The notes beneath the pieces were generated by a model. It searched no databases and was not told the origin of the DNA. It saw only the letters and a program-made list of their open reading frames with translations. From assembly GCA_023663905.1 (NCBI GenBank), contig JAMPGO010000001.1, positions 517,286 to 581,285 on the forward strand: DNA of 64,000 bases, read 5' to 3'. A program made the translations under genes and the position numbers. Origin of the DNA: Ruminococcus flavefaciens (GTDB lineage Bacteria; Bacillota; Clostridia; Oscillospirales; Ruminococcaceae). Positions 7,159 to 64,000 of this stretch are shown here, piece by piece (positions within the stretch are counted from its first letter, which is position 1; each line of letters starts with the position of its first letter).

Positions 7159-7608
7159 TTAAGTAGACGATTCTGTAGGAGTTGTCGGTGCTGTCGACGG
7201 AGCAGTAGGAGTCTCGATATCGATAAACTGCATATTGAGATTTCCTCCAAGCTCATTTTTTGCAACTGAAACACTATTACCGTCCTCATCAACTACAATT
7301 TCAGTTGCCGGCTCGCCTACTTCATAAGCTTCGCCGTTCAGGTCGATTGAAAACGACTTGCCGTTTGCAGAACCGCTCACAGTAATCATCTTTGCTTTTG
7401 TAGCAACCTGTTTTGCAGCGTTCTTGTGTCCCATTTCAGCAACAGGAGCCTGTGCGACAGTTTTCTGGTTGACATTCTTGGCAGACCTTATATACATATT
7501 GATTACATTTGAAGTCTGCACAAGAACGAGCGTCAGGACAGCAAGAATAGCAAGAGAAATGATGATTTCCATAAGGGTCATACCCTTGAAATTTTTTCTT
7601 TTTTTCAT
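7159..7608 (-). CDS. Small prepilin-like protein (PilV/PulI-type minor pilin)
   Basis: A 149-residue protein with the leader MKKRKNFKG and then MTLMEIIISLAILAVLTLVLV. Met replaces Phe at position 1 of the mature protein and Glu5 is retained. The C-terminus is a short, low-complexity Pro/Thr/Ser tail. Its size, its leader and its place between a PilX-like and a PilW-like gene match the minor pilin sets that prime pilus assembly. The ribosome site is AAGGAGGG. Confidence 0.78.
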   Translation of the reverse strand: MKKRKNFKGMTLMEIIISLAILAVLTLVLVQTSNVINMYIRSAKNVNQKTVAQAPVAEMGHKNAAKQVATKAKMITVSGSANGKSFSIDLNGEAYEVGEPATEIVVDEDGNSVSVAKNELGGNLNMQFIDIETPTAPSTAPTTPTESST

Positions 7609-58736: not shown

Positions 58737-58841
58737 CAAATTAAACTTTACTTAATATTTTGATTTGATTTAAGTAATTTATTGGTCGTTTTAACTAAAT
58801 ATTCCGTCAAATATTCTACATTGCAAAATCACCAAATAATA

Positions 58842-58870
58842 TTGACGTTTTTTGAACAATATGTTAAAAT
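58842..58870 (+). promoter_or_regulatory. Promoter of the GH5 cellulase
   Basis: TTGACG (58842-58847) and TAAAAT (58865-58870) are separated by 17 bases. A perfect AT-rich inverted repeat TTACTTAA/TTAAGTAA (58748-58777) lies upstream; it could be a regulator site or a weak terminator. Confidence 0.65.
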
Positions 58871-58940
58871 TAGGTTGAACGGAAAAAATCTTGCACTGGG
58901 TTTTTCCGAAAAATATATACCTATGGGAGGGTATCTTACT

Positions 58941-61166
58941 ATGTTCAAATCAAAAATCACACGTATCATAAGTATGGTTTCTGCAACTGCCTGTATGGCA
59001 ACCTGCATAAACTTTGCTCCTGTTGATATTTCTGAGGCTGTAGAAGTCAAGTCAGCTTTTGAAATCACAGAAGATATGGGTCTCGGCTGGAATCTCGGAA
59101 ACTCACTTGATTCCTATGCGTCCAAACCAAAGCTTGACGAAAATGGTAATACTGTTTATGATGAGGATGGAAACATCGTATACATACCACGTACACCTGA
59201 AGAAGTCAAGGAAATGGGAATTGATACTGAATCAGTGTGGGGAAATCCTAATACTACAAAGCAGATGATTGAAACTGTAAAAGCAAAGGGATTCAACACT
59301 ATCCGTGTTCCTGTATCGTGGTTTCAGCACGTTGACAGCACTAACAGCTACAAAATCAGCGATGAATATCTCGCAAGAGTAAAAGAAGTTGTTGACTACT
59401 GCTATAACAACGATATGTACGTTATCCTCAATCTTCACCACGAAGAAGGCTGGCAGAACCGCTCGACTCTCGGCTCTGATTATGAGGAAATCAACGGCTA
59501 TGTAACCTCTCTCTGGAAACAGCTTGCCGAAGCTTTCAAGGACTACGACCAGCACCTTATCTTCGAGACAATGAACGAACCTCGTGCTACACAGACCGAC
59601 CACGAATGGTGGGGTCCTACTGACTCTGAAGTTGACACTATCAACAAAATCAATGCAAACTCTCTCGAAGTTATCCGTAATGCAGGCGGACAGAATAACA
59701 CACGTCTTGTAATGATGCCCGGCTACTGCGCTTCAAGCGACGTTTCTATGATGTCAAAGGTTGTTATTCCTGACGACGATTACGTTGCCGCTTCCGTTCA
59801 CGCTTATTCACCCTATAGCTTTGCTATGGACGACAACGTTGCCGACCATTCAGTATTTACAGAGGCTAACAAAAACGAACTCATCAACATTATGGACGGT
59901 ATCAGAAAGACTTTCAGCGACAAGGATATTCCCGTCGTTCTTGGTGAGTTCAGTGCTTCCAACTTCGGCAATACCGAAGCAAGATGTGATTGGGCTGAGG
60001 TTTATATGGAGACAACAAAGGCTTACGGCTTCCCGTGCGTTCTCTGGGACAACAATGTTGCGAGCAATGGCGGCGGTGAAGCTCACGGCTATCTCAACAG
60101 AAGCAACTGCACCTGGTATGAAGCTTCCGAGCCTGTTATCGATACAATGCTCAAAGTCCTTGACGATTCGTCTATTGTATGGGGAAGCGCAAGAAAATCG
60201 CCCGTTATCACTCACGACGACATCACAACAGGCAAACAGCTTATTGATACAACATACAGCCTTGATTCTTCCGTAGAGAATGGCGGCTGCACACCCAGTC
60301 TCGATGTTACCTGGAAAGACCTCGAAGGCGGCGACGTTGCTATTAAGTACACGGGCGAAACTCCTGTTATCGCTGTAGTTGACAGCAACTGGAAACACTG
60401 GACAGAAATCAAGCCTTATGACGATGCTGACGGCATTGCTTATTACTCATCTGAACACATCAAAGCTGCTTGTACAGGCACTAAGGACGACCTTGACTCT
60501 CCTGTTCCGTCTCCTGAAGAAATCGAACATATCTTCGCAAGAACAAATGGCATTACTACTATTGAAGCTATGGCTGTAATCGGTGCAGCTGACGTTTCAA
60601 ATGTTGAACCCGAACCCCAAGTTCCGATTTACACTGCCGACCTCTCAAAGACAGACGGCAAAACCCTCACTTTCACAGTAAAGGGTACAGCAGGCTCAAC
60701 AGTAAACGGCTGTGTGGGATATATGGCTGACGAATGGTCGCAGATTGAATGGGCTGACAAAATCGGCGATGACGGTACTGTTACTATCACTGTTGATACT
60801 TCCGTAATTCCGTCCTCTATTTCCTCCGCACAGGTACAGATATGGTGGTGCGACGATAAAAACGCAGAAATCACAATCAACTATGAGGGCGAAACTCCTG
60901 TCGAGACAACAACCGCTTCTTCCGTTGTGAATCCCGGAAAATACCTTGCAGGCGACGCTAACGAGGACGGCGCTGTTGATGTTGCAGACGCTGCCGCTAT
61001 CATCCAGTCCCTCGGCAATAAGGATAAGTATGCACTTTCCGAACAGGGCGCAATAAATGCAGAAGTTGACGGCGTTGAAGGCATTACAGGTATGGACGCT
61101 ATCACAATCCAGAAGGTTGCTGCTCATATGATTAATCTCGAAGATTTACCGCTCAAGGCTTCATAA
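58941..61166 (+). CDS. Secreted GH5 endoglucanase with accessory modules and dockerin
   Basis: A 741-residue secreted cellulase. The signal peptide (1-32) is followed by a GH5 domain (about 45-410) with GWNLGNSLDS, NTIRVPVSW, NLHHEEGW, the acid/base Glu213 in MNEPR and the nucleophile Glu336 in LGEFSASN. Two beta-rich modules follow (about 411-555 and 561-665), each ending in an INYEGETP or IKYTGETP motif; they are probably carbohydrate-binding. The dockerin (668-735) has one canonical Ca loop (DANEDGAVDVAD) and a degenerate second repeat. Start 58941 follows GGGAGGG; the longer frame lacks a signal peptide. The cellobiose it releases would feed the phosphorylase at 28507. Confidence 0.92.
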   Translation: MFKSKITRIISMVSATACMATCINFAPVDISEAVEVKSAFEITEDMGLGWNLGNSLDSYASKPKLDENGNTVYDEDGNIVYIPRTPEEVKEMGIDTESVWGNPNTTKQMIETVKAKGFNTIRVPVSWFQHVDSTNSYKISDEYLARVKEVVDYCYNNDMYVILNLHHEEGWQNRSTLGSDYEEINGYVTSLWKQLAEAFKDYDQHLIFETMNEPRATQTDHEWWGPTDSEVDTINKINANSLEVIRNAGGQNNTRLVMMPGYCASSDVSMMSKVVIPDDDYVAASVHAYSPYSFAMDDNVADHSVFTEANKNELINIMDGIRKTFSDKDIPVVLGEFSASNFGNTEARCDWAEVYMETTKAYGFPCVLWDNNVASNGGGEAHGYLNRSNCTWYEASEPVIDTMLKVLDDSSIVWGSARKSPVITHDDITTGKQLIDTTYSLDSSVENGGCTPSLDVTWKDLEGGDVAIKYTGETPVIAVVDSNWKHWTEIKPYDDADGIAYYSSEHIKAACTGTKDDLDSPVPSPEEIEHIFARTNGITTIEAMAVIGAADVSNVEPEPQVPIYTADLSKTDGKTLTFTVKGTAGSTVNGCVGYMADEWSQIEWADKIGDDGTVTITVDTSVIPSSISSAQVQIWWCDDKNAEITINYEGETPVETTTASSVVNPGKYLAGDANEDGAVDVADAAAIIQSLGNKDKYALSEQGAINAEVDGVEGITGMDAITIQKVAAHMINLEDLPLKAS

Positions 61167-61278: not shown

Positions 61279-62220
61279 ATGGACAATTTCGTTATAGCTC
61301 TCGCAGGTAATCCCAACGTAGGAAAATCAACGGTTTTCAATGCGCTGACAGGAATGAAACAGCACACGGGAAACTGGGCAGGGAAAACGGTTTCCTGTGC
61401 GGAGGGCTGTTTTAATTATAAAGACAGGCATTTTATTCTTGCCGATATTCCAGGAATCTATTCGCTTTTTGCAAATTCCGCAGAAGAACAGACAGCACGG
61501 GATTTTATATGCTCAGGCAAGGCTGACGGTGCTGTTGTTGTGTGCGACGCTTCCTGCCTTGAAAGAAATCTAAGCCTAGCCCTGCAAGTTATGGACAAAA
61601 TCCCCAGAACTGTCGTATGCGTAAATCTGATTGACGAAGCCGAAAAAAAGGGTATCTCTGTTGATTCTAAAAAGCTCAGCGGACTGCTGGGTGTTCCTGT
61701 GGTACTTACATCGGCAAGAAGCAACAAGGGACTTGACGAACTCTGCGAGGCGATGAATAATATTGCCGAAAAAGAACCCTCTCCGCTCAGGCTTAATCTT
61801 CCCGAAAACGACGAGGAGATAATCTCTGCCATTTCGCAGAAAGCAAGCGAAATAGCTTCTCAGGCTGTTTCCTGCAAATCCTCCGAGCCATACCGCCGTG
61901 ACAGACGGCTTGACCGCATATTTCTCAGCAGAACTACAGGTATTCCCGCTATGCTTCTGCTTTTCGGGCTTATTATGTGGATTACCGTAACAGGCGCAAA
62001 CTATCCCTCCGAGCTTCTCAGCAAGGGACTTTTCGCTCTCGGCGATATTATGTCTGAAGGACTGATTAAATCAGGGCTTCCGCTGTGGATTGAAGGTGTA
62101 TTTATTCAGGGCATATACAAGGTGCTTGCGTGGGTGGTCTCCGTAATGCTTCCGCCTATGACTGAGTATAAAAAAAGCCTGCTAATGAAAAAATCCACCT
62201 ATCAGTTATTACTATTATAA
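61279..62220 (+). pseudogene. feoB: feoB, truncated (ferrous iron transporter B, N-terminal part)
   Basis: A 313-residue open frame; complete FeoB proteins are about 600-800. The G domain is whole: G1 GNPNVGKST, G3 DIPGIYSL, G4 NLIDE. The GDI helical domain and the start of the permease (PAMLLLFGLIMWITVTGANYPSELLS) follow. Similarity stops at 62160, just after VSVMLPPM, where family members continue AIFFPLFTLLED. The last 18 residues are unrelated. The rest of the gene is not in the window. Iron transport is probably lost. The break marks the left end of foreign or rearranged DNA. Confidence 0.85.
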
Positions 62221-62275: not shown

Positions 62276-62403
62276 TAATCCTTAAATTTGCTTAATTGCG
62301 AAATAATGAAATAAAAAAATGCTGTCAAGGGCGTGTAAACGTGCATTTTACCCTTGACAGCATTTTTTTATGAATTACAATGAGCAAGCAAATTTAAGGA
62401 TTA
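62276..62403. repeat. Large palindromic unit with 18-base arms
   Basis: The perfect 18-base arms (62276-62293 and 62386-62403, TAATCCTTAAATTTGCTT and its complement) enclose a bidirectional terminator. The shape suggests a MITE-like or boundary element. No target duplication was seen. Confidence 0.65.
62313..62369. terminator. Strong bidirectional terminator
   Basis: A perfect 19-base-pair stem (62313-62331 with 62351-62369) around a 19-base loop has seven T at the end on both strands. It would stop transcripts coming from feoB and leftward transcripts leaving the recombinase segment. Confidence 0.85.
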
Positions 62404-62460
62404 ATTGTCATATCTCCTGCATGAATGAATAGTATTTAACAATGGATTATATACAAAAAA

Positions 62461-62486
62461 GTCGCTTAGTTGGCTACTAAGCGGAC
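62461..62486 (+). repeat. Left inverted repeat flanking the recombinase segment
   Basis: A 26-base sequence that is the exact reverse complement of 63838-63863. Inside it the arms CGCTTAGT (62463-62470) and ACTAAGCG (62476-62483) face each other around the asymmetric centre TGGCT, the layout of a tyrosine recombinase core site. Confidence 0.93.
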
Positions 62487-62512
62487 GACAATTTATACTA
62501 TTTTATAAAATT

Positions 62513-62541
62513 ATAATACAATATTTTATCTGAAAAGTCAA
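62513..62541 (-). promoter_or_regulatory. Outward promoter inside the invertible segment
   Basis: On the minus strand TTGACT (62536-62541) and TATTAT (62513-62518) are separated by 17 bases. It points left through the left repeat. It would point at the gene starting at 63937 if the segment were inverted. Confidence 0.7.
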
Positions 62542-62589
62542 TAAAAAACTATAAAAATGATTTTGAAATCAGCGTTTTTCACAATAGGC

Positions 62590-62618
62590 TAACAGATTTT
62601 ATGTTTATAATGTATAAT
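62590..62618 (+). promoter_or_regulatory. Likely promoter of the recombinase gene
   Basis: TATAAT (62613-62618) has a poor -35 element at 17 bases (TAACAG, 62590-62595), suggesting low expression. Confidence 0.5.
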
Positions 62619-62684
62619 AGATTTAACAGAATTTTTTCTATTAAGGGTCAAAATATGGGTACAGTTAGCAGGAGGTTATAATAT

Positions 62685-63776
62685 ATGTCAAGACGAGGAG
62701 AAAACATCAGGAAACGCACAGACGGCAGGTGGGAAGGACGATACATAGAAGCCTATTCAGTCACTGGAAAAGCCTGTTATCGCTCTGTATACGGCAAAAC
62801 ATATGCAGAAACAAAGGAAAAATTGAAGCAGTGCAAGAAACTTTGTGACAAAAGCACAAGAAGTAGAATAAGTATGGAAGAACTTTTCAAAGAATGGCTG
62901 AATATGAAAGAAAATACTGTCAAGCCGTCTACAAAAGTTACTTACGATTATTTCATAGAAAAACATTTTATTCCTTATTTCAGGAATGTAAAAGCAATGT
63001 ATCTGACGAGTGAACTTGTACAGGATTTTGTATCAGAAAAAAGCAGTCTTTCACCGAAAACTGTTCATGATATGCTTTCACTTCTAATTCAGATTATTAA
63101 ATATGCACAGTCCAAGAAATATATTAATTATTTTGACTTTAACTCTATCACATACCAAAAATTACAGAGTAAGGAACTGTCAGTTTTAAAGAACTCCGAA
63201 TTTATAAAACTTGTAAATTATGTTCAGATACACTTTGAAATACAGAAAATAGGTGTTTTATTGTCCTTGTTTATGGGACTTCGATTAGGTGAAATATGTG
63301 CTTTACAGTGGAAAGATATAAATTTTATGGAAGAAACAATGCACATAAACAAAACTATGCAAAGATTAAAGAATACTGATAAAAACGCAGAAACTAAAAC
63401 AAAAATTGTAATAGACGTTCCAAAAACTCAGAAGTCCATTCGTGATATTCCCATACCCTCTTTTTTAATGACTTTGTTAAGAGAATACAGGTCAAATGAT
63501 AATTCATATATTTTGACTTGCACAACTGATTACATTGAACCACGCACTTATCAGAAAAAATTTAAAACATACCTTGAAGAAGCAGGAATACCCGATATAA
63601 ATTTTCATGCGTTAAGACATACGTTTGCCACAAGAGCCATAGAACAGGAATTTGACATTAAAAGTCTAAGCGAAATATTAGGACATTCAAGCGTAAAATT
63701 TACACTGGAACGCTATGTACACCCCTCAGACGAGTATAAAAAAATGAACTTGGAAAAACTCGCTGTGTTCTATTAA
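62685..63776 (+). CDS. Tyrosine recombinase/integrase
   Basis: A 363-residue recombinase. An arm-type DNA-binding start (RRGENIRKRTDGRWEGRYIEAY) and a SAM-like core-binding domain (about 62-160) are followed by the catalytic domain with Arg200 (MGLRLGEICALQW), Lys in KTQKS (about 247-250), His308 and Arg311 (HALRHTFATRA), His334 (LGHSS) and the nucleophile Tyr344 (LERYVH). All catalytic residues are present, so it should be active. It is the only gene between two perfect inverted repeats, which are its likely substrates. The ribosome site is AGGAGG. Confidence 0.93.
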   Translation: MSRRGENIRKRTDGRWEGRYIEAYSVTGKACYRSVYGKTYAETKEKLKQCKKLCDKSTRSRISMEELFKEWLNMKENTVKPSTKVTYDYFIEKHFIPYFRNVKAMYLTSELVQDFVSEKSSLSPKTVHDMLSLLIQIIKYAQSKKYINYFDFNSITYQKLQSKELSVLKNSEFIKLVNYVQIHFEIQKIGVLLSLFMGLRLGEICALQWKDINFMEETMHINKTMQRLKNTDKNAETKTKIVIDVPKTQKSIRDIPIPSFLMTLLREYRSNDNSYILTCTTDYIEPRTYQKKFKTYLEEAGIPDINFHALRHTFATRAIEQEFDIKSLSEILGHSSVKFTLERYVHPSDEYKKMNLEKLAVFY

Positions 63777-63837
63777 TGGTCAAAATTATGGTCTTATAAA
63801 ATAAATTCTCCCTGATTTTCGCCATTTTTCAATAAAA

Positions 63838-63863
63838 GTCCGCTTAGTAGCCAACTAAGCGAC
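63838..63863 (-). repeat. Right inverted repeat flanking the recombinase segment
   Basis: The exact reverse complement of 62461-62486, 62 bases after the recombinase stop codon. Identity ends sharply at both ends of the 26 bases. Confidence 0.93.
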
Positions 63864-63891
63864 CAAAGCATTACTATGGGTCATTATTATA

Positions 63892-63914
63892 ATAACCTAT
63901 TTTATACAGGTTAT
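63892..63914 (+). promoter_or_regulatory. Hairpin in the leader of the last gene
   Basis: ATAACCT (63892-63898) and AGGTTAT (63908-63914) form a 7-bp stem just before the ribosome site. A TATAAT (63888-63893) overlaps its left arm but lacks a -35 element, so the gene seems to have no good promoter of its own. Confidence 0.45.
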
Positions 63915-63936
63915 GCAAACTAAGGAGGATTTTTAT

Positions 63937-64000
63937 ATGGAAATAAAAAAAATAAGGTGGCAAAAAATCATTTTAGCAATGCCAGTGCTTATGATGTTGT
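63937..64000 (+). CDS. Start of a gene with hydrophobic N-terminus (cut by window edge)
   Basis: Only 21 codons are visible: MEIKKIRWQKIILAMPVLMM and onwards. An AGGAGG site (63923-63928) lies eight bases upstream, so the start is convincing. A basic start followed by a hydrophobic stretch suggests a signal peptide, lipoprotein leader or membrane helix. The product cannot be named. It lies just outside the right inverted repeat and would be the target of the invertible promoter. Confidence 0.7.
   Translation, partial: MEIKKIRWQKIILAMPVLMML

Follow-up and report, generated by a model that had tools for sequence, protein, structure and literature searches.

The window analysed here, a stretch of 64,000 nucleotides, is part of the 894-kb contig JAMPGO010000001.1 of Ruminococcus flavefaciens, in an assembly of 2.22 Mb that is 82% complete. 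Near its right end a tyrosine recombinase gene is enclosed between inverted repeats, together with an outward-pointing promoter-like site, in front of a predicted surface-protein operon. This cassette is likely a self-contained phase-variation switch that is flipped by its own recombinase, with the outward promoter driving the operon after inversion. The left repeat (62461..62486, plus strand) and the right repeat (63838..63863, minus strand), the presumed recombination sites, match exactly over 26 bp. No third copy turned up in the assembly with as many as three mismatches allowed, and a control search with the reversed repeat pattern gave 0 matches. Each repeat consists of an 8-5-8 core, CGCTTAGT-TGGCT-ACTAAGCG, plus flanking bases, the two copies lie in opposite orientation, and the segment between them (62487-63837) measures 1,351 bp.

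The sole open reading frame (ORF) of more than 100 amino acids between the repeats is the complete recombinase gene (62685..63776, plus strand), which encodes 363 amino acids with PF00589 and PF14659 domains. Residues R200, K247, H308, R311, H334 and Y344, which we take to be the catalytic set (R-K-H-R-H-Y), are invariant in 40/40 aligned relatives, all of which also carry the Phage_integrase and SAM-like domains. The best matches among solved structures are the "Int protein" chains 6en0, 6emy and 6emz, presumably Tn1549 Int.

Two promoter-like sites lie inside the segment. The outward promoter, P_out (TTGACT-17-TATTAT, 62513..62541, minus strand), stops 26 bp short of the left repeat, and a weak promoter-like site for the recombinase (CTAACA-18-TATAAT, 62589..62618, plus strand) is proposed on the sole basis of 10/12 consensus matches. 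In the present orientation, a transcript leaving P_out would run leftward into the hairpin of the left repeat followed by an outside T6 (62455..62486, minus strand), which resembles a terminator, and then into a perfect 21-bp stem. Repeat-plus-T sites of this type number two in the 2-kb region, against a mean of 0.4 in shuffled sequences, the second being the right repeat on the same strand. The 21-bp stem (62311-62331/62351-62371) is the inner part of a nested palindrome with outer arms at 62276-62293/62386-62403, which reads as a bidirectional terminator and whose inner hairpin (62311-62371) has a folding energy of -33.5 kcal/mol (z -8.1). On the other side of the cassette, the right repeat has no T-run on its outer side and is followed by the operon leader (63864..63936, plus strand), which carries the Shine-Dalgarno sequence AGGAGG (63923-63928) 8 bases 5′ of the gene at 63937 and is partly conserved in the alignment of the window's subfamily (the window and its seven nearest relatives). 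No promoter-like site was found on the plus strand from the right repeat to the start of this gene.

The gene at 63937 (plus strand) runs past the window's edge to base 3273 of L003, an overlapping stretch of the same contig whose base 1 is window position 61915. Its product is a secreted protein of 424 amino acids with a DUF11 domain and an FPNTG-plus-membrane segment, and with a weak, below-cutoff match to a sortase-dependent surface family. It is followed at L003 3276-5540 by a BspA-type leucine-rich repeat (LRR) protein of 754 amino acids, and this LPXTG-like/BspA-like surface-protein operon is the predicted target of the switch. An earlier note on this stretch had described the repeats as exact reverse complements, each with two arms around a 5-base centre and with the centres opposed, a complete tyrosine recombinase as the only gene inside, a promoter pointing out at the left edge into a strong terminator, and a gene at 63937 with a good ribosome site and no good promoter, and on all of these the present analysis agrees. 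Absent from that note are the lack of a terminator-like site between recombinase and operon in the present orientation and an inward-pointing promoter-like site outside the segment.

Matches to the recombinase at E 0.001, a threshold that lets in distant tyrosine recombinases, occur in 255/297 genomes of the host's taxonomic family, and matches at E 1e-50 or better in 40/100 genomes of its genus. In a first set of loci, drawn from stretches around 80 places taken from similarity lists, inverted repeats with a score of at least 12 flank the recombinase in 69/82, mostly about 170-250 bp before its start and 50-90 bp after its stop. A larger set from 78 genomes gave such repeats in 86/101 genome loci with a homologous recombinase, and repeats scoring at least 16 in 60/78 genomes, which had been chosen for having the recombinase. 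The two repeats of a locus match each other, but their sequence changes between loci: exact repeats of at least 16 bp flank the recombinase in 68/96 genome loci, against 1/600 mismatched pairings in which left and right regions were taken from different loci. The outward promoter is similarly widespread. Near the 5′ end of the recombinase, an outward site scoring at least 8 is present in 51/63 loci, compared with 12/63 for inward sites in the same stretch and 3/63 for the other end; the corresponding counts in the larger genome set are 68/80, 17/80 and 3/80. After clustering at 60% identity, which corrects for relatedness, the outward promoter is found in 28/31 clusters and the inward one in 6/31.

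Viral and plasmid relatives were added to this survey. Of 80 viral loci 24 were examined, and only the 10 with repeats joined the 118-locus file, so that the 103/118 and other figures from that file are inflated; the recount without viral and plasmid loci is the genome-only set of figures given above, and it agrees with the earlier ones. With these loci included, the outward promoter is counted in 84/96, the inward in 18/96 and the other end in 5/95, and 37/40 clusters carry the outward site. Seven of nine plasmid loci were used, leaving out L207 (a frameshifted near copy of L209) and L210 (a near copy of L208). Several places occur under two names in the collection (L005 = L252, L035 = L067, L036 = L068, L271 = the window, L264 = L062). 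The viral contigs L128 and L129 have repeats of just 9 bp, and among 2052 phage records no relative of at least 60% identity was found, none of the 20 matches listed exceeding 43%.

In a sample of the class, a strong relative (E 1e-60) was found in 22/291 genomes, and these 22 belong to 13 families, including that of the host. Repeats scoring at least 14 surround the gene in 20/27 class-wide loci, with far longer inverted duplications in two more and no repeat or a weak one in five, and the strict outward-promoter pattern is present in 10 class-wide loci and the inward pattern in 0.

Natural inversion occurs in this recombinase family. In L093 and L248, from two species of the genus, the cassettes read in the same direction and align over 1,389 bp at 92.9%, while their flanks are swapped (left, 2,122 aligned bp at 85.9%; right, 638 bp at 92.8%), with breaks exactly at the 16-bp repeats. 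Likewise, L092 and the IMG/VR viral contig L131 share one flank (2,527 bp at 90.5%) on opposite sides, and next to its repeat L063 has 52 to about 200 bp that are homologous to the opposite side of L079, L081 and L244. Contigs also tend to break at this place: the first 300 bp that follow the recombinase stop hold a contig end in 9/101 loci, compared with 20 ends in all of the nineteen subsequent bins of that size (5,700 bp), a pattern that would be expected if the presence of both orientations confused assembly. By simple ORF calls, where the first ORF of one flank reads away from the cassette and that of the other reads toward it, the outward-reading one is on the right (off) in 20 and on the left (on) in 10 of 69 loci.

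Given the orientation of the sites and the inversion between L093 and L248, the recombinase would bring the inverted 26-bp repeats together in antiparallel register and invert the 1,351 bp between them. These same observations bear on the idea that the repeats serve a small mobile cassette as attachment sites for excision and integration, with the promoter incidental. This would suit the integrase structures nearest to the recombinase, and the cassette and its flanks stand before different genes in different relatives; however, the sites are inverted rather than direct, L093 and L248 are inverted in place, the outward promoter persists in all but three of the 31 clusters, and the element that carries the cassette has its own large serine recombinase. 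We therefore regard such a cassette as very improbable, and excision as out in view of the inverted sites and the in-place inversion among relatives. That the repeats are merely paired transcription terminators around a resident integrase gene is scarcely credible. Both do form terminator-like hairpins on the minus strand here, but among other cassettes at least five T in the 8 nt outside the left or the right repeat are seen in just 11/73 and 8/73, respectively, yet the repeats match across 1.4 kb and inversion is seen at them. For the family, this account is contradicted by L093 and L248, and T-runs beside the repeats are not general.

The rarity of these T-runs elsewhere makes the terminator-like T-run a trait of the subfamily: in all eight members, T occupies 5 to 7 of the 8 positions just outside the left repeat and 0 to 4 of those outside the right repeat. 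The same presumed recombination site thus looks like a terminator at the left end of the segment and not at the right end. The nested palindrome is likewise present in 8/8 members, with 95.6% of the alignment cells paired and 19/21 inner pairs never varying; 4/38 pairs are changed on both sides, which 6/500 shuffles reach, and the count of further pair types lies within chance (114/500 shuffles). A reading of the palindrome (62276-62403) as a repeated miniature inverted-repeat transposable element is not supported, the genome search having returned just this copy and its own reverse match. Two contigs of another genome, G410:C45 and G410:C25 (L307 and L308), end inside the subfamily's left palindrome and are perhaps further copies of the module.

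Under the preferred reading of a self-flipping switch, the present orientation would have P_out firing left into two terminators, and inversion would turn it to the right, where it would pass the right repeat, whose hairpin has no T-run there, and transcribe the operon through its leader. Several observations weigh against this reading or its details. The promoters and terminators described here are consensus calls only. Among flank pairs homologous from within 400 bp of the repeats, 76 agree in orientation and 8 disagree, and all eight members of the window's subfamily stand in the present orientation, so that flipping of this particular cassette is something we infer and did not see. The earlier note had proposed to search related genomes for the opposite orientation; the subfamily yields none, which is one arm of the test by which that note would have its proposal refuted, and no inverted copy of this cassette was found among close relatives in genomes and viral contigs. 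Its invertible promoter with a self-encoded recombinase stands as a design that is kept over a large family and occurs in both orientations in relatives, and flipping is a prediction for the cassette of the window itself. Contig ends upstream of the gene are raised only weakly (8 in the first 900 bp versus 24 in the next 5,100), and 15/101 genome loci have no repeat with a score of at least 12, though for 4 of them the gene lies less than 230 bp from a contig end. Residues 1-60 of the recombinase, where an arm-binding domain was looked for, match no Pfam domain, the region being partly conserved (GENIYKRKDGRWEGRY). Finally, the "off" state may be leaky, a low state rather than silence, because a promoter-like site (P_ext, discussed below) points into the segment and no terminator-like site was found on the plus strand between recombinase and operon in the present orientation. 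The earlier note's description of the present state as off is accordingly too strong: it is probably not fully off, as the recombinase transcript can run into the operon.

The uniform orientation of the subfamily could also mean that its cassette is locked or turns very slowly, with an intact recombinase, rare turning and an element that travels in one orientation. We consider this unlikely: the 8/8 count favours it, but the recombinase frame of the window is intact with its presumed catalytic residues, and the left and right repeats stay matched while their sequence changes among relatives, suggesting ongoing exchange or selection.

P_ext (TTGACA-16-TACAAT, 62354..62381, plus strand) lies outside the segment and points in, with 11/12 consensus matches. 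In the present orientation only, it would read the recombinase and, by run-on, the operon too; after inversion it would meet the left repeat and then the T-rich end of the segment. If P_ext is real, orientation therefore sets the expression of the recombinase. This leads to a variant in which the present orientation is the expressed or semi-expressed one, P_ext and the recombinase promoter giving a transcript of recombinase and operon, and inversion swaps in P_out and cuts the P_ext-driven recombinase; the device would then have two levels of output and feed back on its own inversion. We take this possibility seriously while thinking it more probably wrong than right. The pattern TTGACA-15/16-TAnAAT is present in 8/8 subfamily left flanks, the plus strand from recombinase to operon has no terminator-like site, and in 6/8 members the 8 nt behind the left repeat as met by P_ext are richer in T after inversion. 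Against this, the T count goes the opposite way in 2/8 members (L067 and L252), P_ext is only a consensus match and its -35 falls in the 3′ arm of the conserved palindrome, a terminator stem that is constrained anyway, and the pattern recurs in just 3/87 other cassettes.

Returning to the switch flipped by its own recombinase, a further feature of the cassette is a pair of putative arm sites. The left one, TTCTATTAAGGGTCAAAATATGGGT (62636..62660, plus strand), has as its first 19 nt a 95% direct repeat of 63768-63786, within the right one (63768..63793, plus strand), which runs in the same direction and overlaps and follows the recombinase stop codon. At the left arm-like site GGTCA[A/G]AAT is conserved in the subfamily alignment, and the subfamily word GGTCAAAAT is related to CCGTCA in the family at large. 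CCGTCA, a motif picked after inspection of the longest-shared-word data, occurs in the same direction before the start in 40/80 and just after the stop in 45/80 genome loci, compared with 4 and 3 for the reversed motif; it is direct at both ends in 35/80 genome loci and 16/31 clusters, and reversed at both ends in 0 and 0. The longest-shared-word test itself is weak, with direct shared words of at least 10 nt in 22/90 and inverted ones in 3; counting the motif gives a clearer picture.

Tn916/Tn1549-type integrases bind direct-repeat arm sites. The CCGTCA-type direct repeats are putative arm-type sites of this kind, a reading prompted by the integrase chains as nearest solved proteins and by the fact that arm-binding domains mark the mobile-element branch of tyrosine recombinases (PMC8138268). 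The recombinase would probably bind these sites on both sides of its own gene. In its nearest solved "Int protein" chains, its Phage_integrase and SAM-like domains and its putative direct-repeat arm sites it resembles a Tn916/Tn1549-type integrase; it differs in that its action seems to take place in situ, on a pair of inverted sites, and in that it is not the sole integrase of its element. Taken further, the data would fit a clade of arm-site-using integrases of the Tn916 type, spread over the class, that became inversion switches carrying their own enzyme and controlling surface and signalling operons in Clostridia and on some enterococcal plasmids. In the window's subfamily, the site would be an orientation-dependent terminator for two converging promoters and each flip would change both the target's promoter and the expression of the recombinase. 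This broader proposal is put forward tentatively, at somewhat less than even confidence.

A recombinase within its own invertible segment, part of the compact design that the earlier note describes, is not unique to this site: Hin is a named example, and in Providencia stuartii an 844-bp invertible segment near fimbriae encloses a recombinase ORF between 14-bp imperfect repeats (PMC5903667). In Salmonella, hixL and hixR flank a segment with a promoter that serves the fljBA operon in just one of the two orientations (PMC9368917). The Hin segment and the present cassette share a recombinase gene within the segment and a surface-protein target, but Hin belongs to the serine recombinases and works with an enhancer bound by Fis (PMC3798978), whereas the cassette encodes a tyrosine recombinase (PF00589) with putative arm sites. 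The Providencia segment is alike in its internal recombinase and the surface-structure locus nearby, and differs as a single case with shorter, imperfect repeats; the likeness is drawn from its description. In the RecV switches of Clostridioides difficile and the fim switch of Escherichia coli a tyrosine recombinase likewise flips a promoter or segment (PMC5903667, PMC9993118), but these segments are small (154-230 bp in C. difficile, 314 bp for fim) and the recombinase lies outside them (PMC5903667), in contrast to the cassette here, which carries its own.

Also similar by description is PhaseFinderDC inverton group 139, with 33 invertons of which 32 are from Clostridia, and with invertase group 35, a tyrosine-type recombinase/integrase (PMC11892184). 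That study calls inversion from reads and counts as "proximal" the genes that intersect an inverton or lie within 5 kb (PMC11892184). Group 139 shares with the cassette the class, the tyrosine recombinase beside the repeats and, in one example with coordinates, a repeat length of 26 bp; in that example, however, 205 bp separate the repeats, too small for a gene. Likened by description, invertase group 35 may hold related enzymes encoded outside their segments, or may include self-contained cases. No description of a self-contained tyrosine-recombinase family was found in the openly licensed papers searched. As far as the literature searched shows, the kind of switch is known, and its tyrosine-recombinase version with putative arm sites, the spread of that version and the left repeat doubling as a terminator are apparently undescribed. 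An inverton survey counts few switches in Clostridia-like Firmicutes, a median of 3 per genome, and pairs them with proximal invertases (PMC11892184). Self-contained cassettes of about 1.4 kb would enlarge this number by many phase-variable surface proteins and two-component systems, every one of them equipped with a dedicated enzyme and site. Because enzyme and site are matched within a locus and differ between loci, they would also form a ready series for studying how tyrosine recombinases choose their sites.

Variation on the design was noted at several loci. Long inverted repeats surround the recombinase in L288 (G432:C2, score 285) and L281 (G676:C14, score 133); by eye, those of L288 look like a single coding sequence present in two incomplete copies, as though a flip swapped gene versions and not a promoter. 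L114 (= L033, G083:C40) has three sites, the extra left repeat lying 92 bp from the first with one mismatch, which could allow alternative inversions. Going by protein starts and sizes, the cassettes of L063, L079, L081 and L122 adjoin gene pairs resembling response regulators and histidine kinases, in which case the target of some switches would be signalling and not one surface protein. Among Enterococcus plasmid relatives, L206 (18-bp repeat) and L209 (25-bp repeat) stand before an accessory Sec operon, and L211, with an imperfect repeat, stands before a WxL operon. In L206, an annotated Enterococcus raffinosus megaplasmid, the recombinase precedes a helix-turn-helix gene and the accessory Sec operon, and in L207 the recombinase frame ends early, L209 being otherwise 99.9% identical. 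No flip was seen among the E. raffinosus plasmids: L206, L207 and L209 share one orientation (L206-L209 flanks, 98.6% and 87%), and L208 and L210 form another pair with a single orientation. The Ruminococcus albus 7 plasmid pRUMAL02 (L212) carries two more tyrosine-type recombinase genes and three "recombinase family protein" genes beside the cassette-type integrase.

An integrative element of about 10.5 kb is inserted in feoB, and the cassette forms its left end. The 5′ part of feoB (61279..62158, plus strand; PF02421, FeoB_N) is cut by the element, whose left end (about 62158) is placed by homology to L034 and L036 beginning at 62158 and 72666, and the 3′ part, with PF07670 (Gate) and PF07664 (FeoB_C), lies beyond the window, where the contig runs on past 64000, at L003 10724-11734 (about window coordinate 72638-73648). 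The order of genes in the element is the cassette, the 424-amino-acid secreted protein, the 754-amino-acid BspA-type LRR protein, an M48 peptidase, a TraG/TrwB-like coupling protein, a Replication-relaxation match that is weak and below cutoff, and a large serine recombinase. In L034 and L036, near 7450-7520, the left end of the element abuts the 3′ part of feoB and not the 5′ part. Insertion into feoB has thus taken place both ways round, and the bases at the junctions between element and feoB would agree with an AT core, itself palindromic, for the serine recombinase. A second feoB-like frame of 681 amino acids is present in the host genome on contig C22. Upstream of feoB, at 58782-61166, the translation judged by eye suggests a large secreted protein that is glycoside-hydrolase-like and ends in a dockerin-like C-terminus.

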